A DNA stretch of 64,000 bases from an uncultured Subdoligranulum sp. Its GTDB lineage: Bacteria > Bacillota > Clostridia > Oscillospirales > Ruminococcaceae. Made by a program: the position numbers and the translations under genes. Of this stretch, positions 23,413 through 53,307 are shown piece by piece (position 1 is the stretch's first letter; each line of letters begins with the position of its first letter). The stretch lies in assembly GCA_945830575.1 (NCBI GenBank), contig CALZZE010000011.1, positions 1 to 64,000 on the forward strand, in the 5' to 3' direction. The notes under the pieces are model-generated. The model worked only from the letters and a program-made list of their open reading frames with translations. It made no database searches and was not told the DNA's origin.

Positions 23413-23441
23413 TTGCGGATTCTGTCGAAATGCGCTATAAT
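23413..23441 (+). promoter_or_regulatory. Promoter of the giant pilin-like gene
   Basis: TTGCGG (23413-23418) and TATAAT (23436-23441) with a 17-bp spacer, about 50 bp before the ATG. Confidence 0.72.
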
Positions 23442-23490
23442 AAATTGTTATGATGAAATAATGTACCCGTTTCCCGGGGAAAGGGTTCTA

Positions 23491-37794: not shown

Positions 37795-38568
37795 TCAGCC
37801 GTCCGGACCCGCCCAGGGGTACGGCTCCATGATGCCGGGGGTGCCCCGTGCTGAGCCGGTCAAGGGTGCGTCCCAGTCGCAGTCAAGAAGCTCCATTCTC
37901 ACAGCCATATAGTTGTAGTGCTTGCTGATGACCTCTGCCGCGCCGACCCGGCGCAGGTCTGCCATCAGCGTGGAGGAGATGCGCTGCAAATACCGGCAGG
38001 TTTTTTGGTCATAGGGGGCGTCCCCGAACAGGGCCGCAGCCATTTCCCGTGCGGTGCAGCTGGAGCCGCGCCGGAAGATGAGATAGGCGAACAGCTCTTT
38101 GGATTTGCTGCGCCGGAACTGGACGGGCTGCCCGTTTAGCAGAAAGACCTCAAACGGCCCCCGGCATTGAACGTGCAGGACAACGCGGGGGACCGGGTGG
38201 CGAAGGTCGGCAAGCTCACGGGAAAGGGCGCTGCGGGTGAGGGGAACCGTCAGATACCCGCTGGCATGCAGATCGAACGCCAGCAGGGCGTAACGGTTGC
38301 TGTCGGCAAGGAAAATCAGATTGCATTGGGGGCAAGCCGACTGAAACTGCGCAGCGGATGCCCCGCCGGACCGGACATCCAAAAACAGAATGTGACAGGT
38401 GTGGAGCTGCAAAAATCCAAGGGCAGCCGGGGCGTTTTCAAACACCGACAGACTGGCCTGCGGAAGTTCCTGCCGCAGAAGGTCTGCAAGCTGCTGGATG
38501 GTCTGCTCATCGCTGCTGACGATGACGGCCTGGATTCTGGCCCGGTTTGTGAGTGCAGTCATATTCAT
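37795..38568 (-). CDS. Atypical response-regulator-like protein with receiver and winged-helix domains
   Basis: A 257-residue protein. Residues about 11-120 have a receiver-like pattern (AVIVSSDEQ, then ILFLDVRSG with Asp64 as possible acceptor). The usual conserved Lys-Pro near the end is replaced by TVPLT, so normal phosphorylation is doubtful. Residues about 130-225 form a SARP/OmpR-like winged helix (SKSKELFAYLIFRRGSS). ATG 38568 follows AAGG nine bases upstream. It is the last gene of the 39544-37795 peptide operon, so it is the best local candidate to act on the palindromic promoter elements. Confidence 0.72.
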   Translation of the reverse strand: MNMTALTNRARIQAVIVSSDEQTIQQLADLLRQELPQASLSVFENAPAALGFLQLHTCHILFLDVRSGGASAAQFQSACPQCNLIFLADSNRYALLAFDLHASGYLTVPLTRSALSRELADLRHPVPRVVLHVQCRGPFEVFLLNGQPVQFRRSKSKELFAYLIFRRGSSCTAREMAAALFGDAPYDQKTCRYLQRISSTLMADLRRVGAAEVISKHYNYMAVRMELLDCDWDAPLTGSARGTPGIMEPYPWAGPDG

Positions 38569-38579
38569 AGGAAAATGCC

Positions 38580-38846
38580 TTACACAGGGGTCGTCTGCAC
38601 GGTGCGCAGAATTGCCCCGGTGGGGCAGTGCTTCTCGCACCAGCCGCAGTCATTGCACAGGCAGGCGTCAATGACCGGGCGGTTACGATGAACAAAAATT
38701 GCCTTGGTGGGGCAGCCTTCGAGGCAGATGCCGCAGTTCAGGCAGGCGGACTCCTGACAAAGGTACACCGTCCTGCGAACAAAGGCGCTCCGCCCGCCGG
38801 TCACGCCGCCGAGGCCCGAATCCTCCAGCGGACGCTGGTTGTCCAT
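38580..38846 (-). CDS. Dicluster [4Fe-4S] ferredoxin with a leader-like N-terminus
   Basis: 88 residues. Cluster one uses C35, C38, C41 and C45 (CLNCGICLEGCP) and cluster two C64, C67, C70 and C74 (CNDCGWCEKHCP), giving two ferredoxin-type [4Fe-4S] sites. The N-terminal LEDSGLGGVTGG ends in a double glycine, like the leaders of the two genes just upstream. It could be an electron donor for the radical SAM enzyme nearby, or a leader-tagged protein itself. Start ATG 38846 has AAAGGAG; 11 bp separate it from the regulator gene. Confidence 0.85.
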   Translation of the reverse strand: MDNQRPLEDSGLGGVTGGRSAFVRRTVYLCQESACLNCGICLEGCPTKAIFVHRNRPVIDACLCNDCGWCEKHCPTGAILRTVQTTPV

Positions 38847-38878: not shown

Positions 38879-39238
38879 TCAGATGTACAGGCGGTGCTGG
38901 TCATACCACTTGTCATAGGTGGAATCATAGCCATCGAAATGGATCCGATACATGACACAGTGGCGCAGGCCGACCCGAATCAGATCTTTGGATTCGATTG
39001 TCCGGTCGATGATGGTGCCGCTCCAGGAGGACCATGTGTTTTCATTGCGCGTCACCTGCACCCGTGTGCCGACCTCGAAATCAAACTTTGCATCTTCCGG
39101 ATTCTCATACCAGCCTCTGCTGCCGCAGACATGCCCGCCCTGCACATAGGAGCCGCCGGCCACATCCGCCAGTTCCGCATCGGACAGGGAGGCGTCCTGT
39201 TTGGGGTCAATGTTGGTCAAATCAAGTTTCTGTTCCAT
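38879..39238 (-). CDS. Double-glycine-leader protein with Tudor/chromo-barrel-like domain
   Basis: 119 residues. The leader LSDAELADVAGG (residues 18-29) has the double-glycine form of Nif11/bacteriocin-type precursors. The remaining 90 residues are large for a modified peptide. FEVGTRVQVTRN, the WSGTIIDR strand and FDGYDSTYDKWYD look like a small SH3/Tudor-knot barrel; this is pattern recognition only. Cys38 and Cys94 are the only cysteines. Start ATG 39238 has AAAAGGAGGAG upstream. Second gene of its operon. A degraded relative of its C-terminus is found at 41133. Confidence 0.75.
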   Translation of the reverse strand: MEQKLDLTNIDPKQDASLSDAELADVAGGSYVQGGHVCGSRGWYENPEDAKFDFEVGTRVQVTRNENTWSSWSGTIIDRTIESKDLIRVGLRHCVMYRIHFDGYDSTYDKWYDQHRLYI

Positions 39239-39253
39239 GGGATGCTCCTCCTT

Positions 39254-39544
39254 TTATTTGTCGGGATAGAAGCCGTAGCATTTTTTGGCAAAAATCAGAG
39301 GAATGTTCCTGCCGCAGCGGGTACACGTAAACCCGCCATTTCTTGTTTCGTAGGCCGCCAGCCCCCCGCAGTCTTTGCAGTAGTAATGGAACCGCTTACC
39401 GGTGGACAATTCGATCCAGCGGATGGGGCGGCCCCAGCAGTCCCGCTTGGAGGGGATACACCCTTTGCCGACGTCAGCCCCGCCGGCGGCCTGTTCCAGT
39501 TGTTCCTCGTTCAGTTGAGCATCGCGTTTGAGTTCGTCCGTCAT
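39254..39544 (-). CDS. Double-glycine-leader protein with zinc-ribbon-like domain
   Basis: 96 residues. The leader LNEEQLEQAAGG ends at Gly22. The rest carries CKDCGG (C56, C59) and CTRCGR (C74, C77), the spacing of a zinc ribbon, plus C29, C36 and C89. It shares GKRFHYYCKDCGGL with GRIFHYECPRCGGL of the protein at 41201, so they are paralogues. It may be a secreted metalloprotein or a modified-peptide substrate; no C39-peptidase transporter is in the window. ATG 39544 follows AAGGAGG. First gene of the operon, directly under palindromic element 1. Confidence 0.75.
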   Translation of the reverse strand: MTDELKRDAQLNEEQLEQAAGGADVGKGCIPSKRDCWGRPIRWIELSTGKRFHYYCKDCGGLAAYETRNGGFTCTRCGRNIPLIFAKKCYGFYPDK

Positions 39545-39577: not shown

Positions 39578-39669
39578 AGTATACCAAACAAATGGATGCA
39601 AAAGAGATACACAAAACGGGAAATTTTTTGCGGAGTGTGTCTCTTTTGCATCCATCCGGGTGGTATTCT
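39578..39669. promoter_or_regulatory. Palindromic divergent promoter element, copy 1
   Basis: Two facing arms. On the minus strand TTTTGCA (39597-39603) lies 13 bp before TATACT (39578-39583). On the plus strand TTTTGCA (39644-39650) lies 13 bp before TATTCT (39664-39669). The arms extend to TCTCTTTTGCA and TGTGTCTCTTTTGCA and are inverted repeats around a conserved AT-rich centre. No sigma-A -35 is present. It serves the peptide operon leftward and guanine deaminase rightward. Confidence 0.75.
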
Positions 39670-39713
39670 GTAAGCCGGGAAGATCGGATTCGACAAAAGG
39701 AAAGGAGATACCA

Positions 39714-40982
39714 GTGAGAAGCTATCTACTGCAAGGGAACATTTGTTACAGCAAATCCAGCGATGAAATCTGTATTGCAGAGGACGGGTATGTTGTATGT
39801 GAAGAAAACAAATGTGCAGGAGTTTTTAGAGAAATACCGGAAAAGTATCAATCACTCCCATTGTACAATTATCAAAACAGGCTGATCATACCGGGGCTGG
39901 TGGATTTACATGTACATGCGCCACAATATCCATTCCGTGGAATGGCAATGGATCTGGAGCTGATTGACTGGCTCAACACCTATACGTTTGCGGAAGAAGC
40001 AAAATATAGGAATCTGGACTATGCAGAGAAGGCTTATGAGATTTTTGTGCAGGACCTGAAAGAAAGCGCAACAACACGGGCCTGCATCTTTGGCACCATT
40101 CATACCGATGCAACCTTATTGCTGATGAGCAAGCTGGAACAGGCCGGAATCAAAGCCTATGTGGGAAAAGTCAATATGGATAGAAACAGCCCGGATGATT
40201 TGTGTGAGGAGAGTGCGGAACAGGCTGCCGCAGATACAGAAAAGTGGATTCAGGAAAGTGAGAAGTTTGTCAATGTAAAACCGATTCTTACACCAAGATT
40301 TACCCTGTCCTGTACCGATGCGCTGTTTGAGAAATTGTCCGGGTTACAGAAAAAGTATCATGTTCCGGTTCAGTCACATCTGTCGGAAAATCTGGATGAA
40401 ATTGAGTGGGTCAAGAGGCTTTGTCCGGGAACAAGGAATTATGGAGAAACCTACGACAGATATGATCTGTTTGGAAACGACTGTCCCACCATTATGGCCC
40501 ACTGTGTTTATAGTGATGAGAATGAAGTGGAGATGATGAGAAAACAACAGGTGTTTGTGGCGCATTGCCCGGAATCCAACGCGAATTTATCATCAGGCGT
40601 GGCGCCTGTGAAGAACTATCTCAAGAAAGGCATGAAAGTGGGTCTGGGCAGTGATCTTGCGGCGGGCACCACCTTGTCAATGTTCAAAGCGATGTCGATG
40701 GCCGTTCAATGTTCAAAGCTTCGGTGGAGGCTGTATGACCAGTCGGTTGAACCGCTTACCATGGAAGAGGCGTTTTATATGGCAACAAAAGGCGGCGGAG
40801 AATTCTTCGGAAAGGTGGGCAGTTTTGAAAAGGGGTATGAATTTGATGCGGTTGTTGTTGATGATACCTCCATTCGGACTCCGCAGAAAGTAAGCGTAAA
40901 AGAACGTCTGGAACGATTGATGTATTTTGCCGACCATCCTGCGATTGCCGCGAAGTTTATCAACGGCGTGAAAGTACTATGA
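39714..40982 (+). CDS. guaD: Guanine deaminase
   Basis: A 422-residue zinc amidohydrolase. Metal ligands are in PGLVDLHVHAPQY, the His of QSHLSEN, HCVYSDEN and the Asp of GSDLAAG; PRFTLSCTDALF is typical of guanine deaminases. It converts guanine to xanthine and ammonia in the cytoplasm. GTG 39714 follows AAAGGAG by seven bases; the longer frame runs through the promoter element. The gene is visibly richer in A+T than its neighbours, with many AAA, GAA and TAT codons, suggesting transfer. It ends with a clear terminator. Confidence 0.92.
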   Translation: MRSYLLQGNICYSKSSDEICIAEDGYVVCEENKCAGVFREIPEKYQSLPLYNYQNRLIIPGLVDLHVHAPQYPFRGMAMDLELIDWLNTYTFAEEAKYRNLDYAEKAYEIFVQDLKESATTRACIFGTIHTDATLLLMSKLEQAGIKAYVGKVNMDRNSPDDLCEESAEQAAADTEKWIQESEKFVNVKPILTPRFTLSCTDALFEKLSGLQKKYHVPVQSHLSENLDEIEWVKRLCPGTRNYGETYDRYDLFGNDCPTIMAHCVYSDENEVEMMRKQQVFVAHCPESNANLSSGVAPVKNYLKKGMKVGLGSDLAAGTTLSMFKAMSMAVQCSKLRWRLYDQSVEPLTMEEAFYMATKGGGEFFGKVGSFEKGYEFDAVVVDDTSIRTPQKVSVKERLERLMYFADHPAIAAKFINGVKVL

Positions 40983-41048
40983 TACAGCGTGCCTTTTTAT
41001 GGAAGTCTGGGCGTTCCGGCTGAAGGCGTCAGAAGGGCTTTAAAAAGA

Positions 41049-41092
41049 GCGCAGCATGGTCTTTTGTAAGAAAAGACTGTGCTGCGCGTTTT
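41049..41092 (+). terminator. Terminator after guanine deaminase
   Basis: GCGCAGCA pairs with TGCTGCGC, with an inner GTCTTTT/AAAAGAC stem, followed by GTTTTT. Confidence 0.85.
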
Positions 41093-41132
41093 TCAGACAG
41101 GGGGACTCTGCACAGGGCGCCTGCGCTGCCGC

Positions 41133-41200
41133 TCAGATGTACAGAAGCGACTGCTCAACCCAGTCGTCATAGCTGTCATCGTAGCCTTGTTGGGTTCTCC
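41133..41200 (-). pseudogene. Remnant C-terminus of a Tudor-like leader protein
   Basis: In the frame ending with TGA at 41133, the codons read GYDDSYDDWVEQSLLYI and stop. This matches the last residues of the protein at 38879 (GYDSTYDKWYDQHRLYI). It directly follows, out of frame, the stop of the zinc-ribbon protein at 41201 and has no start or leader. It is best read as the tail of a deleted paralogue. Confidence 0.7.
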
Positions 41201-41599
41201 TCAGGACTTTGCGCCGTACCAGCCGGTCACTTCTTTGGCGTAGCTGACCCAGCCGCCCCAGTACCAGGTGTTGCAGGGGTCGCAATATAAGACGCCCAGG
41301 GTGCCCAGATGCAGCAGCCCTCCGCAGCGGGGACATTCATAGTGAAAGATTCGCCCGGTTTTCTTCTCTCTCCAATGGGTGACGCGGCCACGGTTATCGT
41401 GGCCACAGACCTCGCAGTTGCCCTCGTTGGAGTCGGACTGGAATTCGATGCCTCCGGCCACCAGCGCCAACTCCTCATCGGTCAGGTCTACGGACTGCGC
41501 CGCCAGCTTCTGCATGGCCTGCTCCGGGGTGATGGTATGCAGCGTTTCGGGCAGGCCTTTTTCTCCCTCATGGGCAGTCAGGTATTCTTTCAACGTCAT
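41201..41599 (-). CDS. Double-glycine-leader protein with zinc-ribbon-like domain, second copy
   Basis: 132 residues. The longer leader (residues 1-50) ends DLTDEELALVAGG. After it come CEVCGH (C62, C65), CPRCGG (C89, C92) and CDPC (C106, C109): three Cys pairs in zinc-ribbon spacing. Similar to the protein at 39254. Start ATG 41599 has AAAGGAG upstream. The C-terminus (WYGAKS) abuts the remnant of another paralogue, so its end may have been changed by deletion. Driven by palindromic element 2. Confidence 0.75.
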   Translation of the reverse strand: MTLKEYLTAHEGEKGLPETLHTITPEQAMQKLAAQSVDLTDEELALVAGGIEFQSDSNEGNCEVCGHDNRGRVTHWREKKTGRIFHYECPRCGGLLHLGTLGVLYCDPCNTWYWGGWVSYAKEVTGWYGAKS

Positions 41600-41640
41600 T
41601 AGAATCGCTCCTTTCACAGATTGGTGTCTGTCATACCTGT

Positions 41641-41699
41641 ATGATAGCAGACAAATGGATGCAAAAGAGATACACAAAACGGGAAATTTTTTGCAGGGT
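41641..41699 (-). promoter_or_regulatory. Palindromic promoter element, copy 2 (one arm lost)
   Basis: On the minus strand TTTTGCA (41660-41666) lies 13 bp before TATCAT (41641-41646). The conserved centre follows to GCAGGGTGT, but the plus-strand arm is replaced by unrelated sequence. The only gene it can serve is the leader protein at 41201. Confidence 0.7.
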
Positions 41700-41854
41700 G
41701 TATTACTGTAGAAAAGAAAACATCCCCGGCGCAGAACAAGGCCAAGGATGTTTTCTGAAAGTGTTCGCAAGGACAAGCAGACCTCGGTATCGCAGATGCT
41801 GTTTCACAACGGCAAAGCATACAGATGATTTCTCGTGCTCTCTGCGTTCATCTT

Positions 41855-43264
41855 TTATGACAATTCCGCAATTCCGCTCAGTTTTTCCCGGAGCTTCCGG
41901 TCGTAATGCCCGCCGAAATAGAGACAAGCCGCCCGGTCGCAGCCCATGAGGTCGTTTCCGGGCGTACAAAGCGCACTTGCACGGCAGCTTCCTCCGCAGC
42001 GTGTGCGGTACTGGCAGGAACCACAGGTTTTGTTGACTTCCCAGAGCTCCTCAAGCCTTGTGTCAATGAGCTTCATGTAGCTGCTGTCGGTAAGACCCAT
42101 TTTCAATCCAATTTCCGTGACAAGGGGGAAATCCTTCTGGATCTCGTCGAAGGAGGACAGCGAAAGGCAGGGCAGCATTCGTCCCTCCGGGGATAGGTAG
42201 AGGGTGTTCCGGGCGTGACCGCACAGCGTCATGCGGGAGCAGTCCACGTCTGCGGGGTACTTTTCAAAGGGAATGCGGTATTCACGCCGGCCCTTGCCGC
42301 CCCAGAAAAATCCGCCCAGCATGAGGGAAAGAGGCATTCCGTCCTCAAAAAAGTGGGGAACATAATCAAGATAAATTTCGAACAGTTCCTCGATCTCGAT
42401 GCTGGCGTGTTCCCCCGTGGTGCGAAGCCACAGCTCTGTTTCGGAAACGGGATTTACCTTGCAGCTTGAAACGCTGTGGGCTCCCAGCGTGTTGATGCTC
42501 TGACGAAGCAAGTGCTTATTTCTCTGATGAAGGCACAGCTCGCTGCCCGTGGGAAAGCCCCGCTGGGCGCACAAATCAAAGGCTTTCAGCACGATCTCGC
42601 CGGCCCTGTCGATTCCACGCAGCCAGTCGTGCATTCCCTCGTCTCCGTCGTAGCTCATGTTGAACTCAGGCTTCTGCCCGTACCCTTCCAGCATATCCAG
42701 CAGCTTTTCGTTCACCAGAAAGCCGTTGGAGTAAATCTGGGTAATCCGGATCTTCCGACGGGAAAGCTCCCGGACGATATCCTCGAAATCGCTGCGGACA
42801 AGGGGCTCGCCGCCGGTCAGCGAAACCTGGGTGATGCCGCATTCGTCGATCTGCCGGATGAGATCCATGATGGTTTCATGGGAAAGCTCCCCCAGCTTTG
42901 CTTCCGGCGCGGACATATAGCAATGGCGGCAGCGGTAGTTGCACTTGCCGGTGATCGACCAGTGCGCGGTGCGGATATAGCGGTTTTCGTATTTCCGGTA
43001 CTGCTGGTCGGCAGTCAGCGCCGCGCCGTACTCGCAGACACGAGCAATGCCTTTTTTCACAAGCTCCGGGAGGATACTGCGCACCTTTTCCGGGAAGATC
43101 GGCAGGGAACAGTCAGTTTTTCCATCACAGAGCGACAGCGCCCAGAACGTGTCCTTATCCACGAACCCAATGGAATTGTCCGGGCGGTGCAGCAATCCGT
43201 AGGGCAGCATCTCATACCCGCGGAGGCAGAAGGGTTCATTCAATAGGTAGTACTGTCTGCTCAT
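41855..43264 (-). CDS. Radical SAM/SPASM peptide maturase
   Basis: 469 residues. Residues about 1-85 look like a PqqD-like winged recognition domain for leader peptides (ILPELVKKGIARVC). The radical SAM motif is C108-x3-C112-x2-C115 (CNYRCRHC), with a GGEPL motif about 45 residues later. A C-terminal SPASM region has Cys at about 414, 417, 423, 427, 433, 442 and 447, binding auxiliary clusters. Such enzymes make thioether or C-C links in ribosomal peptides. ATG 43264 is preferred (GGAG five bases upstream) over GTG 43297. It starts 50 bp after the CxC precursor gene and must be its partner. Confidence 0.85.
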   Translation of the reverse strand: MSRQYYLLNEPFCLRGYEMLPYGLLHRPDNSIGFVDKDTFWALSLCDGKTDCSLPIFPEKVRSILPELVKKGIARVCEYGAALTADQQYRKYENRYIRTAHWSITGKCNYRCRHCYMSAPEAKLGELSHETIMDLIRQIDECGITQVSLTGGEPLVRSDFEDIVRELSRRKIRITQIYSNGFLVNEKLLDMLEGYGQKPEFNMSYDGDEGMHDWLRGIDRAGEIVLKAFDLCAQRGFPTGSELCLHQRNKHLLRQSINTLGAHSVSSCKVNPVSETELWLRTTGEHASIEIEELFEIYLDYVPHFFEDGMPLSLMLGGFFWGGKGRREYRIPFEKYPADVDCSRMTLCGHARNTLYLSPEGRMLPCLSLSSFDEIQKDFPLVTEIGLKMGLTDSSYMKLIDTRLEELWEVNKTCGSCQYRTRCGGSCRASALCTPGNDLMGCDRAACLYFGGHYDRKLREKLSGIAELS

Positions 43265-43314
43265 TGGTTCTCCAATCACCTGGTTGTTTTTGTTCACTGT
43301 TCAGAATTCATTCT

Positions 43315-43665
43315 TCAGGTTGCACCGTCTCCCCAAAGTACACAAACGCAGGGAATCGCGTTATGGGCGCCGCCTATTCCTCCTCCAGTACAAGCGCATA
43401 CAAGACCTTCTCCGCTTCCGCCGCCGACGAGTGGACACATGCAGATACCGCCGCCGGCTACCACTTCAAGCTCGTCATCGCTGAGCTCGCCTTCGGGCGC
43501 TTTGAAATCCTCTGCGGTAAGCACCACACCGTATTCCTTCAGCAGTTCAATCATCTTCTCCTGCAATTCGGTCTGGCTGTCAGCGGTAATCGCTTTCAGT
43601 CTGTCGTTTAGCTCCGGGTGTTCCTGCAATACCTTTTGCAGCTGTTCCTGTTTCTGCTCGTTCAT
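43315..43665 (-). CDS. Nif11-type RiPP precursor with six-Cys CxC core
   Basis: 116 residues. A helical leader of the Nif11/NHLP type (LKEYGVVLTAEDF, then LSDDELEVVAGG) ends at Gly71-Gly72. The core of about 44 residues is Gly-rich, with cysteines only as CxC pairs: C75/C77, C90/C92 and C106/C108. Regular spacing and Gly linkers fit a substrate for thioether cross-linking (sacti- or ranthipeptide-like) by the radical SAM enzyme downstream. ATG 43665 has GGAGG upstream. First gene of a two-gene operon under palindromic element 3. Confidence 0.85.
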   Translation of the reverse strand: MNEQKQEQLQKVLQEHPELNDRLKAITADSQTELQEKMIELLKEYGVVLTAEDFKAPEGELSDDELEVVAGGGICMCPLVGGGSGEGLVCACTGGGIGGAHNAIPCVCVLWGDGAT

Positions 43666-43731
43666 TGTGATACCTCCATAAGATAAAATCACTTATGGAC
43701 ATGACGGCCAAACCGTATATCCATTGGTTAT

Positions 43732-43823
43732 AATATATCATGCAAATGGATGCAAAAGAGATACACAAAACGGGATTTTTTTTGCAGAGTGTGTCTCTTT
43801 TGCACCTGTTTCTGTGCTATACT
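43732..43823. promoter_or_regulatory. Palindromic divergent promoter element, copy 3
   Basis: Minus arm: TTTTGCA (43751-43757), 13 bp, TATATT (43732-43737). Plus arm: TTTTGCA (43798-43804), 13 bp, TATACT (43818-43823). The arms are inverted repeats TCTCTTTTGCA around the conserved centre. It serves the RiPP precursor-maturase operon and the lipoprotein at 43854. Confidence 0.75.
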
Positions 43824-43853
43824 GGAACAAACGTAAAAAAGGAGAGGAACCCG

Positions 43854-44828
43854 ATGAAAGGAAAACTTCTGATGATGTTGGCAGGTGCGGCTCTGCTGGC
43901 GGGGTGCGGCACGGCCGTGTCCGCCGCTGCACCGCAGCCCACCGAGCAGCCCGCCGCCGAGGTGAAAGCCCCCGCGCCCGCGCCGGTGACGGTGATGGGC
44001 CGCCCGGAGGAGACCATGGCGGAAATCACCCCCGGCTTCCGGTATACGCTGGCGGACGTCCGGCAGGTGGGCGGCCGGCAGGGCATCGCGGCGGATGAGC
44101 GCTATTATTACGTCAGCGGCAGCACCACCCTGCAAAAGTTTGACAAGGACTGGAATCTGGTGGCGGAAAACAACGACCCCTTTGCAAAGTTTGAAATCAA
44201 GGTCAACCATCTGGGCGACATTGACGTGTACAACGGAGAAATCTACGCGGGAGCGGAAAATTTCAACGATGGAGCGGCCACCGATATTCAAATCGCCGTG
44301 TATGACGCCGAAACGCTTGCATTGAAACGGACCTTCCTGTTTGAACCCTCCAGCGGTCAGCTGGAGTGCTCGGGTGTGGCCGTGGACCCCGACCACAACG
44401 CGGTGTGGATGTGCTCCTGGGTGGGGGAGGAGAGCGGGCGGTATCTCTATCGCTACGACCTGACCACCGGCGAATACGTGGGCAAGGTGCATCTGCAATG
44501 CCCGCCCCAGTGGCTGCAGGGCATCGCCTACGACAAGGGCTATCTGTACATGACCGCCGATGACGGCACCGCCGATCTGGGCGAGCCGGACCACGTTTAC
44601 CGCTGCTTCATCGACCCGGAGGCCACTACCGCCACGGTGACGCTGGAACGCACGCTGGACGATGTGACGCTGCAAGGGGAAATTGAGGGCATCTCCATCG
44701 ATCGGGACAAAAATCAGATGCTCATTTCCTACAACCGCGGCTCCCAGATCGTGCTGGGCATGGTGCGCGGATTCTATGAAGGGTATGAGGAGGAAATTCA
44801 CGAGATTTTCGTGTATGACCGTTCCTGA
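43854..44828 (+). CDS. Secreted lipoprotein, probable beta-propeller
   Basis: 324 residues. The signal ends in lipobox LLAGC with Cys18, then an Ala/Pro tether. The rest has a recurring pattern of strands with Asp/Tyr turns (YYYVSGSTTLQKFDKDW; GVAVDPDHNAVWMCSW; GISIDRDKNQMLISY), suggesting a propeller of the SMP-30/NHL type. No catalytic residues are obvious. ATG 43854 has GGAGAGG upstream. It shares a divergent element with the RiPP operon, so it may be an immunity, receptor or surface component of that system. Confidence 0.7.
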   Translation: MKGKLLMMLAGAALLAGCGTAVSAAAPQPTEQPAAEVKAPAPAPVTVMGRPEETMAEITPGFRYTLADVRQVGGRQGIAADERYYYVSGSTTLQKFDKDWNLVAENNDPFAKFEIKVNHLGDIDVYNGEIYAGAENFNDGAATDIQIAVYDAETLALKRTFLFEPSSGQLECSGVAVDPDHNAVWMCSWVGEESGRYLYRYDLTTGEYVGKVHLQCPPQWLQGIAYDKGYLYMTADDGTADLGEPDHVYRCFIDPEATTATVTLERTLDDVTLQGEIEGISIDRDKNQMLISYNRGSQIVLGMVRGFYEGYEEEIHEIFVYDRS

Positions 44829-44835
44829 CAACCAA

Positions 44836-44867
44836 AACGACCCTGCCGCATTTGCGGCAGGGTCGTT
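44836..44867 (+). terminator. Perfect hairpin after the lipoprotein gene
   Basis: AACGACCCTGCCGCA pairs perfectly with TGCGGCAGGGTCGTT. There is no long U-tract; it is followed at once by a miniature element. Confidence 0.7.
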
Positions 44868-44868
44868 G

Positions 44869-44958
44869 CAGCGTGTCGAAAAAACTCATTTCGCGTTTGT
44901 AGGGGGCGTCGAGGACGCCGCCCCCTACAAGTGCAAATACAGGTTTTTCGACAAGCGG
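44869..44958. mobile_element. Short derivative of the miniature element, copy C (90 bp)
   Basis: It starts CAGCGTGTCGAAAAAACT and ends GGTTTTTCGACAAGCGG, around a GGGGGCGTCGAGGACGCC core. It has the terminal repeats and one palindrome of copies A and B but lacks the second palindrome. It lies between two hairpins, flush with the one on the left. Confidence 0.7.
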
Positions 44959-44987
44959 AACCGCCAGCGGAAACCGGCGGTTCCGCC
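44955..44987 (-). terminator. Hairpin after the PAP2 phosphatase gene
   Basis: GCGGAACCGCC pairs with GGCGGTTCCGC (11 bp). It overlaps the end of element copy C and probably terminates the leftward phosphatase gene, though no strong U-tract follows on that strand. Confidence 0.5.
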
Positions 44988-45017
44988 TTGAAAAATGGTT
45001 TTTCTCCCTTCGGAACC

Positions 45018-45935
45018 TCAGCGCCTTCCTTTTGCCGCGAGCCACCGGAAGCTCATCGGATAGCAGCTGCCAACGATGGCGATGGTGAGAAAATAGGTAA
45101 GCCCCGCCCTGTACAGCGCATGGCCTGCCAGCCGGGAAACAACCGCGTTGATCCCCGCCTGCACCGCCAGCAGCAAACCGACCCCGGCCGCGACCTTGAT
45201 GACCTGTACCCACCAGACGGCCCTGGTGTCGTAATGGGTATACAGCCTGTCGGTGAGGTAGCTGACCGACACGCCCGCCATACACCCCAGCGCGACCCAC
45301 GTCTTTTTGATGCAGGATTCCTGCGCATAGTCCACGTAGTGCGCGGAGTGCGGCGCAAACGTGAGAAGCGCAATGACTGCCGCCATCCCTGCCATCATCA
45401 AAAGGGTCAGCAGCGTCAGCCTGTTCAAATCTCCGTGGATGCGGTCATACACGGCGTTCAGAATCAGAATGACCCCAAAGCCCAGACCAATCCCGGCGAT
45501 GCAGTCCGTCAGGGTATGGACGCCAAGCTCCATCCGCGCAAAGGCTACGCCGGCGATCGCAAGCACACACAGAGCGCGGAACCACCACCGTTTCGCCATG
45601 CACAGGGGAATGCCGAACACCGTTGCGGCGGTCATGCTGTGTCCGCTGGGCAGTGAATACCCCGGAGCGCCGTCCTCCGCCGCCGACACAAAGGAGAAGG
45701 ACGGGTCCGCTGTGAAGGGCCTTGGCACCTGAAGGGTCCCTTTCAGCAGCCGGGAAAGGCCGGAGCTGAAAAAGCCGCACATCATATACCGGTAGCCCCA
45801 CTTTTTATCCACGCACCATAATAGAATCAGGCCCACCGTCAGAAATACCGTTTCCTCGCCCAGCATGGAGAGAAGGATGCAGAGTCTGTCCAACACCGGG
45901 CTGCGCAGTTTTTCGAGAAAATATAAGAGTTCCAT
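45018..45935 (-). CDS. PAP2-family membrane phosphatase
   Basis: A 305-residue protein with about seven membrane helices. The three PAP2 motifs are KGTLQVPRP, the PSGHS motif and the third-motif His/Asp in MELGVHTLTD. The enzyme removes phosphate from a lipid such as phosphatidic acid or undecaprenyl pyrophosphate outside the membrane. The C-terminal half adds further helices beyond the usual core. Start ATG 45935. It converges on the lipoprotein gene, and its start faces away from the end of the surface protein. Confidence 0.88.
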   Translation of the reverse strand: MELLYFLEKLRSPVLDRLCILLSMLGEETVFLTVGLILLWCVDKKWGYRYMMCGFFSSGLSRLLKGTLQVPRPFTADPSFSFVSAAEDGAPGYSLPSGHSMTAATVFGIPLCMAKRWWFRALCVLAIAGVAFARMELGVHTLTDCIAGIGLGFGVILILNAVYDRIHGDLNRLTLLTLLMMAGMAAVIALLTFAPHSAHYVDYAQESCIKKTWVALGCMAGVSVSYLTDRLYTHYDTRAVWWVQVIKVAAGVGLLLAVQAGINAVVSRLAGHALYRAGLTYFLTIAIVGSCYPMSFRWLAAKGRR

Positions 45936-46012
45936 ACAGTATTGCCGTCCTTTCTAATCTGTGTGTATCAGCATAGCACAGCTTCCCGGAAGCTGCAATG
46001 CGGGAAACGGCA

Positions 46013-49000
46013 TCATTTTTTGCGCTTGCGGAACAGCATCCAGCCCGCAAAGGCCAGTCCGCCAAGACCCAGCCCGCCGGCCAGCAGCAGAAGGGCCAGC
46101 GGCGGCCGGGGAGCCGGTTCCGTCCCGGTCAGCTCCGGGGCCGGTGTGGGCGCAGGGGCGGCCGGGGCCTCGGTGCTTTCCGGGGCGGCCTGCGGCAGGT
46201 CAGTGGGAGCCGCTGCGGAAGCTGGTGCGGCGGTGGGGGAGGGAACCGCGGTGGCCTTCGGCCTTGCGGTGGGGCTGGCGGCTGCCGGTGCGCCGGGCAC
46301 TGCCGGGGCGGCAGGAGCCTCCTCTTTGCCCCAGGTGCCGTCCGCAATGGCCTGCCCGATTTCCGGGTGCTCGCTTTCCGGGGCGGCGGTCGTGCCGCCC
46401 GTCCAGCCCAGCAGCACCACGGCGCTGCCCCGCAGCGTCAGCTGCGCGGTATGGGGGCCGGTCACGGTGAAGGCGGTGCCGCCCGCCGTCTGGCCGTTTT
46501 GCAGCACCAGCACCTCCCCGGCGGCGTGGCCGTCCACCGCGTCCTGATACAGCACGGCGGCGGCAGGCTGGGCGGTGCGGGCGTCCACATTGTCCGGCAG
46601 GGACAGAACCGCGGCGGCGGTTTCGGTGCCGGGCAGCACGTCATAGCTGCGCCAGTGCTCGCCGTCCACGCTGCGCTGGGCGATGACCTCCGCAGCGGCG
46701 GACACCGTCTTGCCCGGCAGCGCGGTTTGCAGGGCCGTCAGGGCCTGCGCGGCGGTGGTGACCCCGGCGTCCCGTAAGGCAAAGCTTAAATCGGCGGTCT
46801 CGGCGTCGTCTGTCTCGGCGCGCAGAAGGGTGGGGGCCTGCCCGGCGGTAAACCGGGCCTCCAGCGTGCGGCTGGCGGAGAGGGTCAGCGTCAGCGTGGG
46901 TTCGGTGCCCAACAGCACGCCGTTTTCGTACCAGCCCGCGAACCGGAACCCTTCATAGGCATCGGCGGTCAGCGTCAGCGCGGCGCCGTCCCACGCCGTG
47001 GCGGCCAGCACCCCGTCCACATTGCTCTTGCGCAGGAAGTCCCCCTCCAACAGCACCTGGCCGTCCTCCACTGCGGTCTGGAATCCGTTTTCCATGGATT
47101 CGCTGGGGAACACCGTCAGGGTGTGTGCGCCGTCATCGGCAAATTCAGCGGTATAGAGCTGATGTTCGCTGCCGGTATGGTCCGTTGTGCAGGTCCATGT
47201 GGGGGCGTCCGATACCGTCTGCCCGTTTCCGTCGACCCACCGCACAAAGCGGAACCCTTCGCCGGCTTCGGCGGTGAGGGTCAGGCTGTCCCGTTCTCCT
47301 GCAACCAAGCTTCTGTCGCCGGCGGTGGTGCCGGTGAGCGGCCGGGAAGTGTCGGTGCCCACATGGACGTAGACGTCCGGCGTGGGGACCTCCAGAATGG
47401 TCATGGTGCGCAGCGCGATGGAGGGATTCCCGTTATAATCCAGATACAGACCGATATAGTCGTTGTTTTCCCACTTTCCGGTCAGGTCTACCGTCAGGCT
47501 GTAGCTGTGCTCCACCCAGGTGTCACCCTGTCGTCCCTCGGTCAGTTCTCCGGCGTGGGCGGCAAAATTGTACAGCGTCACCGCTTCGGTCTGGCCCTCC
47601 GTATTCAGGCGGGTCATCATCAGTTTCAGGTTGGAGAAATCCACGGCGTTCATGGACTCGTTGGTGATGGTGATGTGGCCGTTGATTTGGTTGTCCGGAT
47701 AGGTCAGATCCACCTGCATGGACAGGGTCTCTGTCTCGTTGATATCCAGCGAGGTCAGGCTGAACCAGCCCTCCCCGGCGGCGCGGCTGTTGGTCTGCCC
47801 GGCTACGCTGGCCTGTAAGGTGACCCGGTGCGCGCCCAGCTCCCAGTTGTCGGGAATCTTCAAGGCCAGCTCCAGCGTTTCCGCCATGCCGGGGAAAATT
47901 TCCCGGATCACGGTGGGGCTGTCCACAAACTCCATGACCTGATTCTTTTCGTCCACCGCACGCAGTTCCAGAAGATGGGTCTTGCGGCCGCCGGTGGTGT
48001 TGCGCACCGTCAGCTGAACGGGGAAGGCTCCGTCGGATTTGGAGATCAGCGTTCTGGGCAGCGTCACGCTTTCCGCCTCCACGCCGTCGGTCAGCGTATG
48101 CTGCCACAGGCGGATGTCGCAGCGGCGCACGTTTTCGGGGGCGTCCATGTCCGGCACGGTGTAGATCAGATTGACGGTTTTCAGTCCCTGCCCGCCGTCC
48201 TGATAAGAGCCGTATTCGGTGGTGGCGCAGAACGCGCCGATGGGCTCCGGCTCGTCCAGTTCATAGGTCTGCGGCTCCGCCACCAGCAGATATCGGAAGG
48301 TCTCGTAGCGGTCCATCGTGTAAAAATAGTGGATGACCTGATAGCCGGTCTGCACCATCTGACCGTTTTCGTCCGGCTCCATGCGGGGCGTCAGCTGGAG
48401 GAGACTGCCGTACTGGGGCTGGATCACCAGCTGGCAGGCATCGGTGCCGCCGATGCCGTCAAAGGCCTCGCCCTGACCGTTCATCCACTTGGCCTCCATG
48501 GCGGTGCCGTCGGGGTAATAGACAAAGAAGTGATTGCCAATGATGAAATACACGTACCCGTCCTGCACGCAGTAGGTGGTGATGAGCGGGCCGTTCCAGT
48601 ACAGGGTGCTGTCCACCGGGATGGTGACCATCTCCTGCGTGGGCTGGCCTTTCAGATCCACGCCGCGCATCTGCACAGTGGCGCCGTTGGCCCGCACCAT
48701 GAAGAACATGGCCTTGCCCTCCTCCACGCGGCCGGTGGGCAGAATGTAGTGGGTGCCCATGCGGCGCACCGTCTGCGCTTCGTAGTCATACCAGCAGACG
48801 CCCACCTTTTTCTCCTTCCACAGGGGGACGCAGTGGCCGTCCTGCCCGGTGACCATCGGCTCGGTGATCTCGTTGGCATTGCTCTTGGGCACAAGGGTGC
48901 TTTCGGCGGCCTTGTGGGCGTACAGATCCCAGGTCAGGCCGGTGATGCGGGTGGAGGCGGCCCGCTGTTCATAGGTTTCGGTGCCGTCAAAGTCCGCGGT

Positions 49001-51643
49001 GACCAGCGCGATGTACACCCGGTCAGCGCCCTGCTGGTCGGCCATCACGGCATACCGCATGGCGTCCGCGCCGCCCTCCGAAGGCTCCACGATATGGACG
49101 AGGCCGGTGTTGTCCAGTGCCTGATACACCAGCCGGGGGTGACCGCCCACCGAGGCGATGCGGAACAGGTAATCGGTGCCGTTGACGCTGACCACCTGCA
49201 TCTGGGTATCCCCCTGCACATCGGCCAGCAGGGTGGTGCCGGCGCTGTTCGCGGCTCTGGCCAGCAGGGGATTGGGGAGATAGGAATCCCCGGCGGCGCC
49301 GGTCTCGGAGACCGCCTCTAAATCCAGCGCGGTCAGCGGACCGGTATCGGCAGGCTCCTCCCCGCTGGCGGCAAGCAGCATCCGCGGCTGGGTGATGCCG
49401 CTCCAGTTGGTCCATGCGTCCGCAGCCCACTGCTTTTTGATGGTGTAGGACACCGAGAAAAACAGCGCGGTGGCCGACAGGGTCAGCCCCGCCCCGAAAA
49501 CACCCGACCAATGGGGATAGGTGTATCCCACCGGCGCAGGCTGGGCGTTGTTGGAGATGCAGACCGAAATATTCACCCACAGGTTGCCGCAGACTTCGGC
49601 GCAAAGCACCTTGCGGATGCCCACGCCCACATACAGCGCAAAGCCCATGCCGTAGCCCACCGTCACGCTGCCGCCGGTGCTGGAGACCTGCTCCGGGTTG
49701 GAGATGGCCTTGACCATGGCGGTGTTGTCGGGCTGATCCACGGGGACCTTGGTCTGATAGTACACCGAGGTGTCCAGACTGCCGCTGGCGCTCACCTCAA
49801 AGCCCCAGTACCAGGGCACCGGGACGGGGCCGACCATCAGCACCGAGCTGTAGGTGTTGCCGAACCGCCCGGTGATGGACACATAAATGCGGCCGCCGGT
49901 CTGTTCCATGCCGGTGTTTTTGTTGTAGCCGCCCAGAAAGCCGAACATGACCCCCACCAGCAGGGACTGGTCCGGGTCACCCCAGGCGCCCTTCTGTTTG
50001 GTGCCGTCCATCATGCCGGTGTAGTTGGCAACGCCCTTTTCCAGCTTGTCCAGCTTGTCGTTCATCATGTTCTGGAGGGACTGCATGCCGTCACGGGCCT
50101 TGTCCTGCTGGCGGGGGGTCAGGGTGCCCTTGGCCCACTTGGCAAGGTCTTCCGCCGGAACGCCCAGCGACGCGCCCGCAAACACGGTGCCGTCGGGCAG
50201 CACCATCACCGCCACCGGCAGGGCGGGAATCTCAATACCCAGTTCAAGGCCCTCCAGACCGGGAATGGTGGTGGACAGCTTGCTGGTCTGTTTCAGGGCG
50301 GACAGCTTGAATTTGTACTTGGAATAGCTGGCCTCCGGGCAGATGGCCCGCTGCACCGTCAGGCCCAGCGCCGTGCCGATGCTGCCGTCCGAGAGTGCCA
50401 CCTGCGTGGTGTCGCCGGGGTTCAGCAGGCCGCTGCCGGCCTGTCCCCAGCGGGTGGTCTGGCTGTAAATGGCGGTCAGGGCATCCGGCCCGGCAGAACG
50501 GGTCAGGCCGCCCGGCGCGCTGGTGACGGTGCGGGTCACGCCCTTGTTTTCTGCTGTCAGGGTCAGAACCGGCGTGTTTTGACCGTCCCCCGGCCAGTCC
50601 AAGCTGGCGTTGGCACGGCACAGCATGACGGTGAAGGTCATATCCTTGGACACATTCACCAGATCAAGGCTGGTTTTGTTGTGCAGAATGTCCGCACCCG
50701 CCAGATCGACACAGCGCAGATAGTAGGTTTTGTCATCGATAGGCTCCATCTGGAGGGTCTGCATTTTGCCGCCGGACAGATCGGCGTCCAGCAGCGTGAT
50801 GGAGCAGTAGTCCGCACACTGAATGTCCAGCACGCCGTAGCAGTTCCCCTCCTGCGTTTCAAACACGGCGGTGCCGCCGGTGCCCTCGATTTCATGGCCT
50901 TCGCTGTCTTTGCGGGATTCGGTCCGCTTGGTGACAGGGCTGCCGATCAGATTGCCGTTTTCATCCTTCATCTGGATGGTCACGGTGGCCCCGTTCAGCG
51001 GTTCGCCGTTTTCATTCACCACCCGGATGAGGGTGTGGGTGGTGTCGATCATGTACAGCACGGCGGAAACGCCCGCGGCGCGGCTGCTGACCATATCGGC
51101 GCTGCTCTCCACGATTTCCACGGCGGACCAGTCGTTTTCCGTGACCGGCAGCACAGCGGCGGCGTCAGCGCTTTCCTCCGACAGCAGGAGAGGAGCGTTC
51201 AGTGCGGCATGGGTGGCGTCGGCGGCCTGCACCAGCGCGGCCAGATCCTCCGGGTCCACGCCGGTCTCGCTGGTCACGGCCTGTCCCAGAGCGTCCCACC
51301 CTGCCTCGTAGTCGCTCATGTCCAGCGGCTGGGCATCCTCGTTGGGAGTGATCTCCTGCACGGTGAAGGCGTCCTCCAGCTCGCTGCCGCCCCGCAGGGA
51401 AAGGGCGGCGGTCTCCTCGCCGTTTTCGTCCTGCCCGATGGTATAGGTGCCCTGCTCTCCGGGCAAAAGCTCGGAAAGCTGGCCGGTGACGTTCTCACTG
51501 GCTTCACTGGTCTCCGGCGGCGCGGCGGCCGTTTCCGGCGTGGCGGGAATCTCCTCGGCGCAGACCGCCAGCGCACTGCCGGGGCCGCACAGCATCGCGG
51601 CCGCCAGCAAAGCGGCGATGCACCGTTTTGTCATGTTGTTCAT
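46013..51643 (-). CDS. Large cell-surface protein (1876 aa) with C-terminal membrane anchor
   Basis: A signal peptide covers residues 1 to about 28. The middle contains a hydrophobic, Gly-rich region (about 560-740) and long beta-rich parts. Two bacterial-repeat (InlB-like) units lie near 1470 and 1570 (FRFVRWVDGNG; FRFAGWYENG). A Pro/Ala/Thr-rich wall-spanning stretch (about 1775-1842) is followed by one helix and FRKRKK, so it is membrane-anchored without LPxTG. I cannot assign a function. ATG 51643 has AGAGGAG. It is driven by the leftward arm of palindromic element 4. Confidence 0.82.
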   Translation of the reverse strand: MNNMTKRCIAALLAAAMLCGPGSALAVCAEEIPATPETAAAPPETSEASENVTGQLSELLPGEQGTYTIGQDENGEETAALSLRGGSELEDAFTVQEITPNEDAQPLDMSDYEAGWDALGQAVTSETGVDPEDLAALVQAADATHAALNAPLLLSEESADAAAVLPVTENDWSAVEIVESSADMVSSRAAGVSAVLYMIDTTHTLIRVVNENGEPLNGATVTIQMKDENGNLIGSPVTKRTESRKDSEGHEIEGTGGTAVFETQEGNCYGVLDIQCADYCSITLLDADLSGGKMQTLQMEPIDDKTYYLRCVDLAGADILHNKTSLDLVNVSKDMTFTVMLCRANASLDWPGDGQNTPVLTLTAENKGVTRTVTSAPGGLTRSAGPDALTAIYSQTTRWGQAGSGLLNPGDTTQVALSDGSIGTALGLTVQRAICPEASYSKYKFKLSALKQTSKLSTTIPGLEGLELGIEIPALPVAVMVLPDGTVFAGASLGVPAEDLAKWAKGTLTPRQQDKARDGMQSLQNMMNDKLDKLEKGVANYTGMMDGTKQKGAWGDPDQSLLVGVMFGFLGGYNKNTGMEQTGGRIYVSITGRFGNTYSSVLMVGPVPVPWYWGFEVSASGSLDTSVYYQTKVPVDQPDNTAMVKAISNPEQVSSTGGSVTVGYGMGFALYVGVGIRKVLCAEVCGNLWVNISVCISNNAQPAPVGYTYPHWSGVFGAGLTLSATALFFSVSYTIKKQWAADAWTNWSGITQPRMLLAASGEEPADTGPLTALDLEAVSETGAAGDSYLPNPLLARAANSAGTTLLADVQGDTQMQVVSVNGTDYLFRIASVGGHPRLVYQALDNTGLVHIVEPSEGGADAMRYAVMADQQGADRVYIALVTADFDGTETYEQRAASTRITGLTWDLYAHKAAESTLVPKSNANEITEPMVTGQDGHCVPLWKEKKVGVCWYDYEAQTVRRMGTHYILPTGRVEEGKAMFFMVRANGATVQMRGVDLKGQPTQEMVTIPVDSTLYWNGPLITTYCVQDGYVYFIIGNHFFVYYPDGTAMEAKWMNGQGEAFDGIGGTDACQLVIQPQYGSLLQLTPRMEPDENGQMVQTGYQVIHYFYTMDRYETFRYLLVAEPQTYELDEPEPIGAFCATTEYGSYQDGGQGLKTVNLIYTVPDMDAPENVRRCDIRLWQHTLTDGVEAESVTLPRTLISKSDGAFPVQLTVRNTTGGRKTHLLELRAVDEKNQVMEFVDSPTVIREIFPGMAETLELALKIPDNWELGAHRVTLQASVAGQTNSRAAGEGWFSLTSLDINETETLSMQVDLTYPDNQINGHITITNESMNAVDFSNLKLMMTRLNTEGQTEAVTLYNFAAHAGELTEGRQGDTWVEHSYSLTVDLTGKWENNDYIGLYLDYNGNPSIALRTMTILEVPTPDVYVHVGTDTSRPLTGTTAGDRSLVAGERDSLTLTAEAGEGFRFVRWVDGNGQTVSDAPTWTCTTDHTGSEHQLYTAEFADDGAHTLTVFPSESMENGFQTAVEDGQVLLEGDFLRKSNVDGVLAATAWDGAALTLTADAYEGFRFAGWYENGVLLGTEPTLTLTLSASRTLEARFTAGQAPTLLRAETDDAETADLSFALRDAGVTTAAQALTALQTALPGKTVSAAAEVIAQRSVDGEHWRSYDVLPGTETAAAVLSLPDNVDARTAQPAAAVLYQDAVDGHAAGEVLVLQNGQTAGGTAFTVTGPHTAQLTLRGSAVVLLGWTGGTTAAPESEHPEIGQAIADGTWGKEEAPAAPAVPGAPAAASPTARPKATAVPSPTAAPASAAAPTDLPQAAPESTEAPAAPAPTPAPELTGTEPAPRPPLALLLLAGGLGLGGLAFAGWMLFRKRKK

Positions 51644-51681
51644 AGGGCGTTCTCCTCTTTCTGCTGCCTCATTGTATCTGC

Positions 51682-51773
51682 ATTATATCATAAAAAGGGA
51701 TGCAAAAGGGATACAAAAAACGACAAATTCTTTGCAGAGTGTGTCCCTTTTGCACCCGTTTGTATGCTATGAT
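51682..51773. promoter_or_regulatory. Palindromic divergent promoter element, copy 4 (covarying arms)
   Basis: Minus arm: TTTTGCA (51701-51707), 13 bp, TATAAT (51682-51687). Plus arm: TTTTGCA (51748-51754), 13 bp, TATGAT (about 51768-51773). Here both arms read CCCTTTTGCA where the other copies read CTCTTTTGCA, a matched change in the two half-sites. It serves the 1876-residue surface protein and the lipoprotein at 51811. Confidence 0.75.
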
Positions 51774-51810: not shown

Positions 51811-53307
51811 ATGAAATGGAACAAACTCGCAGCAGCGGTGCTTTCGGTTTTTCTGGGACTTGTCCTTGCGGGCTGTCTCCAGACCGCAGAGCCGCAGTAT
51901 ACGCTGATTTTGACAAGCCCCAGCGATGAAAATGAACCCATGCCGCAGGGGCGGCACTTTTATGTCTCGGGCGCCATCGAAACGCAGGGCGGCAGCGGCG
52001 TTCCTGAGGATGCGCAGATGCTCGTCCGCCTGCTGGACGAAACCGGGCAGGCCGTGCGCACCGTCCGCAGCGTGGGGAAAGGCACCTCCTGCCTCTGGGC
52101 GTTCCATGAAAACTATGTGTACGATGTGCCGGATGACCCGGAACGCGCAGACTGCGTGGCCGGGTATGACCCCGTCCTTGTGGTGGAGGACGTAACCCGC
52201 CCCATGGAGTCCTTTGCCAATGCGGAAATCAAATGCGCGTTCAGCGATGACCAGTTCCGTGCCCTCATCGTCTGTGCCACCGATGCCGCCCACGGGCTTT
52301 TGCAGGATGACGGGGTGGGCTTTGTCAACGGGGACGGCACGGCCATCGAGGGACTGCCGGCGGGGGACTATTCGGTGCAGGTGACGCTGCTGGACGGCAG
52401 GGAACGGGTGCTCGCGTCTGCGGAAAAAGAACTGACCATCGGCAATCCCACCGACTCGGTGATTGGGCGGTTCCACCCGCAGGAGCACTATGAGCGGCTT
52501 CTTGACTGGTACAGCCAGCAGGGCTGGGCCATCAACATTGACTGGATCCCCGGATTTATGCCCACCTCCAACGGCGTTGTCAGCGGATTCCCCGCCATGT
52601 TTGCCAACAACGACCTTGCGGTGTACAGCGTTTCCAAGGCGCACATGCTGATGTACCTCATCGAGCCTTCCAGCAGCTCCAACCGTCTGGAGCTGGCGTA
52701 TCTGCAATATGCGGGGCGGGTCGGCAGTCCCGAAACCTTCGCGGCCTATCATTACGACATCGGGGAGCCGGTGGTGTACCTTCCGGACGGCGAAGTGTTG
52801 GAGGGAACCATCGTGCCCTTTGCGGAACAGGATTATCTGGATCTGTGCCGGGTGGATGAAGTGACCGACGAGGCGGTGGACAACATCTATCCCTTTGAGG
52901 GCAATTATAATGTAAAGTCCAACACCCGGCTGGACGGAACTGTCGTGGTGGACGCCTCCCGGAAATTTGCGGTATCGGGTGCGCTGGCGCCCTTTCAGGT
53001 GGAGCCGGAGGATGTGTCCCAAACCGAAGGCGGCCTGTACGAGCTGCGCAACAAATTCGATACCGTGACCTATACCTTTGACGATGGTACGTCCAGCCGG
53101 ACATACCGGAAATCCGCTGTGATGACACGGTACAATTACGCGATGCGTGCGAATGCCTACGTCTGCTATTATGAATTTTACAATGTGTTTGACGGCGCGG
53201 AGGTGCTGGAGCCGGGGAAAACCTACACCGTCACGGTGCAGGGGTATGACAATCATGGAACCCCGGTAGAGGGCGCACAGGAAACCATGACCATCCGTGC
53301 GGAATAA
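51811..53307 (+). CDS. Secreted lipoprotein of unknown function (498 aa)
   Basis: The signal ends in lipobox LVLAGC with Cys at about residue 22. Early beta-sandwich-like sequence (residues 30-210) is followed by an alpha/beta part (about 215-340, FHPQEHYERLLDWYSQQGW) and a C-terminal sandwich ending in KTYTVTVQGYDNHGTP. No catalytic motif is recognised. ATG 51811 has GAAAGGAA upstream. It shares element 4 with the large surface protein and is likely produced with it. Confidence 0.75.
   Translation: MKWNKLAAAVLSVFLGLVLAGCLQTAEPQYTLILTSPSDENEPMPQGRHFYVSGAIETQGGSGVPEDAQMLVRLLDETGQAVRTVRSVGKGTSCLWAFHENYVYDVPDDPERADCVAGYDPVLVVEDVTRPMESFANAEIKCAFSDDQFRALIVCATDAAHGLLQDDGVGFVNGDGTAIEGLPAGDYSVQVTLLDGRERVLASAEKELTIGNPTDSVIGRFHPQEHYERLLDWYSQQGWAINIDWIPGFMPTSNGVVSGFPAMFANNDLAVYSVSKAHMLMYLIEPSSSSNRLELAYLQYAGRVGSPETFAAYHYDIGEPVVYLPDGEVLEGTIVPFAEQDYLDLCRVDEVTDEAVDNIYPFEGNYNVKSNTRLDGTVVVDASRKFAVSGALAPFQVEPEDVSQTEGGLYELRNKFDTVTYTFDDGTSSRTYRKSAVMTRYNYAMRANAYVCYYEFYNVFDGAEVLEPGKTYTVTVQGYDNHGTPVEGAQETMTIRAE

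Follow-up and report, generated by a model that had tools for sequence, protein, structure and literature searches.

The 64,000-nt stretch of DNA analysed here (in the following, the window) contains a recurring inverted repeat, and the question arises whether its outward-facing arms are promoters and, if so, which protein acts on them. An earlier note on this DNA had located such elements at 39578, 41641, 43732, and 51682, and all four were recovered, i.e. element 1 at 39578..39669, element 2 at 41641..41700, element 3 at 43732..43823, and element 4, the most diverged of the window copies, at 51682..51773. Elements 1, 3, and 4 face both strands, element 3 with two intact arms. Element 2 has an intact left arm on the minus strand (TGCTATCAT), and its right arm is destroyed, the one exception that had been claimed among the eight window arms. 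The other seven carry TTTTGCA exactly 13 bp before a -10 hexamer of the form TAnnnT, as proposed, and no -35 hexamer of the sigma-A type is visible by eye in the window elements. The count of four is correct for the window, but the genome total is six, with two more elements on another contig (C5). At C5:25048-25101 the right arm conforms and the left arm is defective, and at C5:30216-30260 the left arm conforms and the right arm is defective.

The seven occurrences of TTTTGCA-N13-TAnnnT in the window compare with a mean of 0.04 and a maximum of 1 in 200 dinucleotide shuffles. Three inverted pairs of the form TGCAAAA...TTTTGCA, with an interval of 25-60 bp, are present, versus 0.025 in the shuffles. 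Among spacings from 8 to 19, the value of 13 accounts for the seven window sites, and the next best spacing (8) for three. The whole genome (2.88 Mb, 69 contigs) was searched with CTTTTGCA-N13-TAnnnT, which yielded ten sites, nine of them inside the six elements, and none for the reversed control. The exact palindrome pattern had no match in 149 relatives, including 34 of the same genus, and the element had no match in a plasmid collection.

Read outward, an arm is composed of two 11-mers, the first for example TTGTGTATCTC and the second TTTTGCATCCA, then six bases and TGnTATnnT. In element 1, the left arm on the minus strand reads TTGTGTATCTC TTTTGCATCCA ... TGGTATACT, and the right arm on the plus strand reads GAGTGTGTCTC TTTTGCATCCA ... 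TGGTATTCT. All nine conforming arms carry a TG two bases ahead of the -10 hexamer, i.e. an extended -10 element. As this extended -10 is of the housekeeping type, an alternative sigma factor is not needed; the housekeeping sigma factor would suffice, and the missing -35 points to an activator. The two 11-mers form a near-perfect direct repeat in the left arm of element 4 (TTTTGTATCCC TTTTGCATCCC, 10 of 11 positions). For the conforming left arms, the matches are 6, 7, 7, 7, and 10 of 11 positions. The conforming right arms have 3 or 4 of 11 and would fail a formal repeat score, and an arm in a related genome (G482, see below) has 5 of 11. The subsites are mostly imperfect repeats, which counts against reading them as a direct-repeat operator. 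A Shine-Dalgarno-like motif and a start codon follow 24-60 nt past the inferred start site in all nine conforming arms. A loose Shine-Dalgarno motif is also present after both non-conforming arms given to the same search, so that this evidence is a consistency check only.

The genes behind the window arms are of several kinds. The left arm of element 1 faces a presumed operon on the minus strand, which begins with a double-glycine leader peptide with a Cys-rich core (39254..39544, ..NEEQLEQAAGG; no family over the cut-off). It continues with a second leader-type peptide (38879..39238, ..LSDAELADVAGG) and a 4Fe-4S ferredoxin-like protein (38580..38846, Pfam Fer4), and ends with a protein composed of a degenerate receiver and a SARP-like DNA-binding part (37795..38640). 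The right arm of element 1 faces an amidohydrolase gene on the plus strand (39714..40982). Its earlier identification as guanine deaminase is backed by a TIGR02967 match of 366.1 bits, which is just under the curated cut-off of 375.4, and we call it guanine deaminase-like. The left arm of element 2 faces a leader peptide with a CxxC-rich core (41201..41599, minus strand, ..LTDEELALVAGG). The left arm of element 3 faces a Nif11-like leader peptide (43315..43665, minus strand; TIGR03798 26.2 bits, cut-off 32.3), behind which a radical SAM maturase-like protein is encoded (41855..43297, minus strand, Pfam Radical_SAM). The leader peptides at 39254-39544, 41201-41599, and 43315-43665 all have a double-glycine motif. 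To the right of element 3 lies a lipoprotein gene (43854..44828, plus strand, signal sequence by eye) without a family match in family profile searches. Element 4 has a 1876-aa surface protein on its left (46013..51643, minus strand) and on its right a further lipoprotein (51811..53307, plus strand, signal sequence by eye), for which family searches gave nothing over the cut-off. The cores of the leader peptides at 39254-39544 and 41201-41599 contain CxxC pairs resembling zinc ribbons, with no family over the cut-off, which seems unusual among RiPP precursors. Genome-wide, a single match over the cut-off was found for an NHLP-type exporter, on a contig without an element (C4).

The two elements on C5 bring in a candidate activator. 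The conforming left arm faces a gene for a SpoIIE-type phosphatase with a 5TMR-LYT sensor. Behind the conforming right arm begins an operon for a LytS-like kinase and, just downstream, a response regulator (L018:10955-11728). The kinase gene product has His_kinase (76.7 bits) and HATPase_c (50.8 bits) matches and the regulator a Response_reg match (64.7 bits), so that a receiver protein and an adjacent kinase gene are both present, as in a two-component system. The C-terminal DNA-binding part of the regulator has no recognised Pfam domain; neither Trans_reg_C nor LytTR is among its Pfam matches. BTAD gave no match at E values up to 10 in this regulator or its orthologue, and because of this lack of BTAD by Pfam we do not file the protein as a SARP. 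When a profile of the DNA-binding part alone (built from 21 homologues) was compared with the PDB, the top two matches, both weak, were the SARPs EmbR (E 0.0033) and AfsR (E 0.0054), with the OmpR-type chain 1p2f close behind (E 0.0086). The whole-protein profile aligns along the OmpR-type regulators 1kgs, 3r0j, and 4b09, i.e. receiver plus winged helix as in the OmpR/PhoB family, from which the protein differs by the slightly better rank of the SARPs and by the lack of Trans_reg_C. In a structure model of the orthologue, the order of helices and strands is consistent with a winged helix. A structure comparison with this model (locus L083) returned receiver domains nearly throughout, and EmbR and AfsR are absent among the 50 matches listed. 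All in all, the C5 regulator seems to be a two-component protein acting in the manner of a SARP.

The orthologue, in genome G482, is 88% identical, and the kinase-side arm is kept there before the kinase gene with identical spacing (TTTTGCGTCCATTTCTGTGCTATACT), suggesting that the ancestral element stood before the kinase gene. The other side of this element has no intact arm. Each of the two arm patterns matches in G482 at the kinase gene and at one other place. One of the arm-pattern searches covered the genomes of L083, L039, L042, and L076, which had been chosen partly for half-sites already seen, and is for this reason not independent evidence.

Homologues of the C5 regulator allow a broader comparison. 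From named genomes, 79 loci were obtained (best 80 of 127 matches), mostly from Clostridia, with some from Erysipelotrichaceae and Treponema. Of 396 genomes of the family, including the own genome, 46 had a match at E 1e-35. The list comprised 118 loci. Six were left out, three as short copies (L026, L027, and L030, of L034, L035, and L033) and three that match the DNA-binding part only (L028, L029, and L031), and two of the remaining 112 had less than 150 bp downstream, so that 110 were used, near-identical regulators among them. In 48 of the 110 loci, a same-strand 11-bp direct-repeat promoter with the geometry of the arms lies no more than 450 bp behind the regulator gene. The reverse strand has one such locus, and shuffles have 0.0; the remaining 62 loci have none at the threshold. 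The two own-genome loci, L018 and L033, are included in the 110, and neither is among the 48. After clustering of the regulators at 95% identity, in which operator-bearing members were kept first (L089 is absent from the alignment), the value is 42 of 98. The 450-bp region is a post hoc choice because it was picked after hits had been seen there; shuffles, the reverse strand, and a control region at +2000, with at most three of 76 loci, served as safeguards. The search also gave a bonus to TTTTG, which was derived from the window. In a search without these letters, only a period of 11 was enriched on the same strand, with 31 of 110 loci at a gap of 8, compared with 0-3 for other periods and a mild period-11 enrichment (4-8 loci) on the reverse strand. 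The best distance between the 3′ repeat and the -10 is 8 bp at the homologue loci and 9 bp in the register of the arms, an overlap with the -35 region in either case. A loose direct-repeat test of the 3.5 kb upstream of the 112 regulators showed no peak. An operator upstream of the kinase gene as a general rule found no support, as only three of 63 loci scored 13 or more, versus two on the reverse strand and 0.1 in shuffles.

The letters of the operators vary with the regulator (TTTTGCAACRC, TTTTGGCGC, TTTGTTGCGC, TTTGATGGA, and others), and the -10 stays sigma-A-like, with the qualification that the TAnnnT core was required by the search. The pattern TTKTGYNYCC fits three of the 48 operators (L068, L069, and L071), and their regulators are the three nearest to the C5 regulator among the 48 (65, 64, and 62%) and share with it the helix HE[SA]YxKSLRRDL. 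L067, equally close, has no operator in the 196 bp downstream examined, L070 (57%) has TTTTGCATACT, and L075, whose helix is similar, carries TTTTGTGTCCA ahead of the kinase gene. The distances between operators and between regulator helices correlate (Mantel p 0.0005; 48 loci thinned to 39). Once the remainder of the protein is corrected for, the correlation is no longer significant (partial r 0.08, p 0.10). The idea that the recognition helix alone drives changes of the operator is thus not supported; operators track the regulator phylogeny, not provably the helix.

Taken together, comparative sequence evidence argues, with a probability of about 75%, that the arms are promoters of the SARP-like activator class and that the C5 regulator is their activator. 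An arm would be a promoter read by sigma-A, having an extended -10 but no -35; in place of the -35 region there would be an operator of two subsites, bound by a response regulator whose winged helix is SARP-like. The subsites, approximately TTGTGTRTCTC and TTTTGCAYCC, would be 11 bp apart, i.e. one helical turn, with the downstream one ending about 9 bp before the -10, and two such promoters back to back would make up the palindrome. The LytS-like kinase would phosphorylate the C5 regulator, a dimer of which would recruit RNA polymerase at each operator and hence in both directions. The kinase-regulator pair, located behind the right arm of an element, would be autoregulated. Predicted outputs are the RiPP-like peptides and the maturase, the lipoproteins, the giant surface protein, and the guanine deaminase-like enzyme, and in addition the SpoIIE-type phosphatase and the second, degenerate regulator. 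The cassettes are probably paralogues, and a ready-made divergent promoter may have been copied before new genes.

PMC10936776 describes SARP operators as direct repeats with a period of 11 or 22 bp, of which the last lies 8 bp from the -10, and AfsR as engaging sigma region 4 over the -35 region; 22-nt boxes are also given in PMC5930380. In the same two papers, AfsR binds as a side-by-side dimer, and the main operator of PimR is said not to overlap the -35. The Streptomyces promoters (AfsR/afsS and PimR), with 11-bp direct repeats over the -35 region that end 8 bp before the -10, resemble the operators at the homologue loci and, less clearly because of their mostly imperfect repeats, the arms. 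In contrast to them, the promoters described here have extended -10s, stand back to back, and form a cassette that has been copied; likewise, their presumed regulators, found mostly in Clostridia, combine the DNA-binding part with a receiver in one protein and have a LytS-like kinase gene as neighbour. The agr system has divergent activator-dependent promoters. The LytTR systems with LytS-type kinases (agr P2/P3 and VirSR) share the kinase type with the C5 pair, but differ by the LytTR domain. In the open-licence PMC literature, as far as its text was accessible, no description of SARP-type operators for two-component systems of Clostridia was found. The earlier remark that no description was known is therefore upheld for the two-component version and the copied divergent cassette within that literature, but not for the operator logic, which is known from the Streptomyces SARPs.

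The same promoter class could be served by another activator, i.e. the regulator at 37795, a paralogue on contig C3, or the BTAD-type SARP at 35546, which we consider unlikely. The earlier note had put forward the regulator at 37795, which is 38% identical to the C5 regulator and lies within the presumed operon behind element 1, a position that can be set on either side of the case. Further 37795-like regulators exist in G482 and G483 beside the C5-type one. In contrast, in the operator-bearing genomes G484, G485, and G486 the only match to 37795 is the C5-type regulator. As main activator, 37795 is unlikely, since its putative recognition helix is far from those of regulators with this operator. 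The same distance applies to the C3 regulator, and its own upstream region has a different repeat, by eye TGTCAC-N5-TGTACT-N11-TATAAT. Other SARP or receiver proteins had also been suggested as candidates. The protein at 35546-36751 is encoded 3 kb from element 1, but is disfavoured as well, since orthologues with 52-63% identity occur in five of seven same-genus genomes tested, all without the element, and no match was found in G482, G485, and G486. As judged from these genomes, its phyletic pattern appears opposite to that of the element and the C5-type regulator.

Two observations concern the surroundings of these regulators. The BTAD-type SARP (35546-36751, plus strand; Pfam BTAD 28.4 bits) is located beside large pseudopilin-like ORFs, one of which (23332-33546) has GFTLVEL near its start. 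The C3 pair (L033:6073-13960) is a divergent paralogous kinase-regulator pair that adjoins a surface protein of at least 1570 aa, which, along most of its length, shares 31% identity with the 1876-aa window protein.

Extended -10 promoters are able to work without a -35. The arms could thus be on by default and be turned off by a protein sitting on the -35 region, where the operator would block polymerase. We regard such repressor sites as quite improbable, as the geometry is that of SARP activator sites.

It is highly improbable that the elements are a dispersed repeat or a small mobile element that does not serve as a promoter. Between the arms, five of the six have the same centre with few changes, which marks these as duplicates of one sequence and shows that at least five of the six go back to one ancestor. 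Many copies in random orientation would be expected of a plain repeat, but there are only six, and a single one of the ten strict half-sites lies outside them. The copy at C5:30216 retains its arms, but not the centre, which differs, and has a core of 45 rather than 54 bp. Ahead of the kinase gene of G482, a one-sided version has been preserved. In addition, arms that face a gene have retained their sequence and spacing, and arms that face none have lost them. Of the 12 arms, nine conform, and the three defective ones face no intact gene, a split with a chance of 1 in 220, where "intact gene" was judged after the fact. The right arm at 41641 is followed by nothing but the 3′ terminus of a convergent gene, and beyond the right arm at C5:30216 there are a terminator-like hairpin and, on the opposite strand, a tRNA. 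At C5:25048, the left arm has TACACA as -10, and the frame beyond it is a relic. This frame (L018:8729-9103, minus strand) fuses the start of a leader peptide to the tail of a 37795-like regulator, as if an operon had been duplicated and had lost its middle.

An alternative sigma factor that recognises TTTTGCA as its -35, to which the fixed spacing and the lack of a sigma-A -35 had pointed, has a next to negligible probability in view of the TGnTATnnT in nine of nine conforming arms and of relatives in which the repeat letters vary next to a sigma-A-like -10 (its TAnnnT core required by the search). Of the earlier reading, the activator-dependent class of divergent promoters and the regulon are retained on the comparative evidence, but the alternative sigma factor is not.

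With the SARP-like activator reading, an unnamed palindrome is linked to a specific regulator family. With moderate confidence, we propose that a widespread, undescribed class of receiver-SARP two-component systems exists in Clostridia, Erysipelotrichaceae, and some Treponema, with 11-bp repeats that diversified regulator by regulator, and that in this species the regulator's promoter became a palindromic cassette working both ways, copies of which recruited new genes. The copies suggest duplication of a ready-made divergent promoter as a way for a regulon to expand. The sequence rule, i.e. an 11-bp repeat at a fixed distance to the -10, often just downstream of the regulator gene, could be used to predict the regulons of many uncharacterised two-component systems of gut Clostridia, including RiPP-like peptides and surface proteins.

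The particular operator of this genome is rare. TTTTGCAYCC-N7-TGnTAnnnT occurs eight times here and once each in seven of the 395 other genomes of the family, in one of which (G281) the site adjoins that genome's regulator homologue. Among the 34 genomes of the same genus that were examined, none carries the element, and none has a C5-type regulator at E 1e-20. A relaxed operator pattern exceeded its reversed control in G485 (12 versus 5) and G482 (2 versus 1), but not in G483, G484, and G486 (1, 3, and 3 versus 1, 4, and 5). In G485, four of the 12 relaxed sites are on the regulator's own 63-kb contig, and one site precedes a fragment of an NHLP secretion protein (34.7 bits, cut-off 156.2).

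Nine proteins encoded downstream of operators at the homologue loci, not all of them in the first reading frame after the promoter, comprise four GGDEF proteins, three S-layer or Cna_B surface proteins, one M13 peptidase, and one without a match. The GGDEF proteins, at L099, L102, L104, and L117, have Cache-type sensors and are located behind the direct-repeat promoter, which suggests a c-di-GMP output in that branch. Small receiver-like proteins of about 120 aa, as estimated by eye, are encoded behind operator sites at L186 (contig C130 of G485) and L176 (G486), and they recall the degenerate receiver at 37795.
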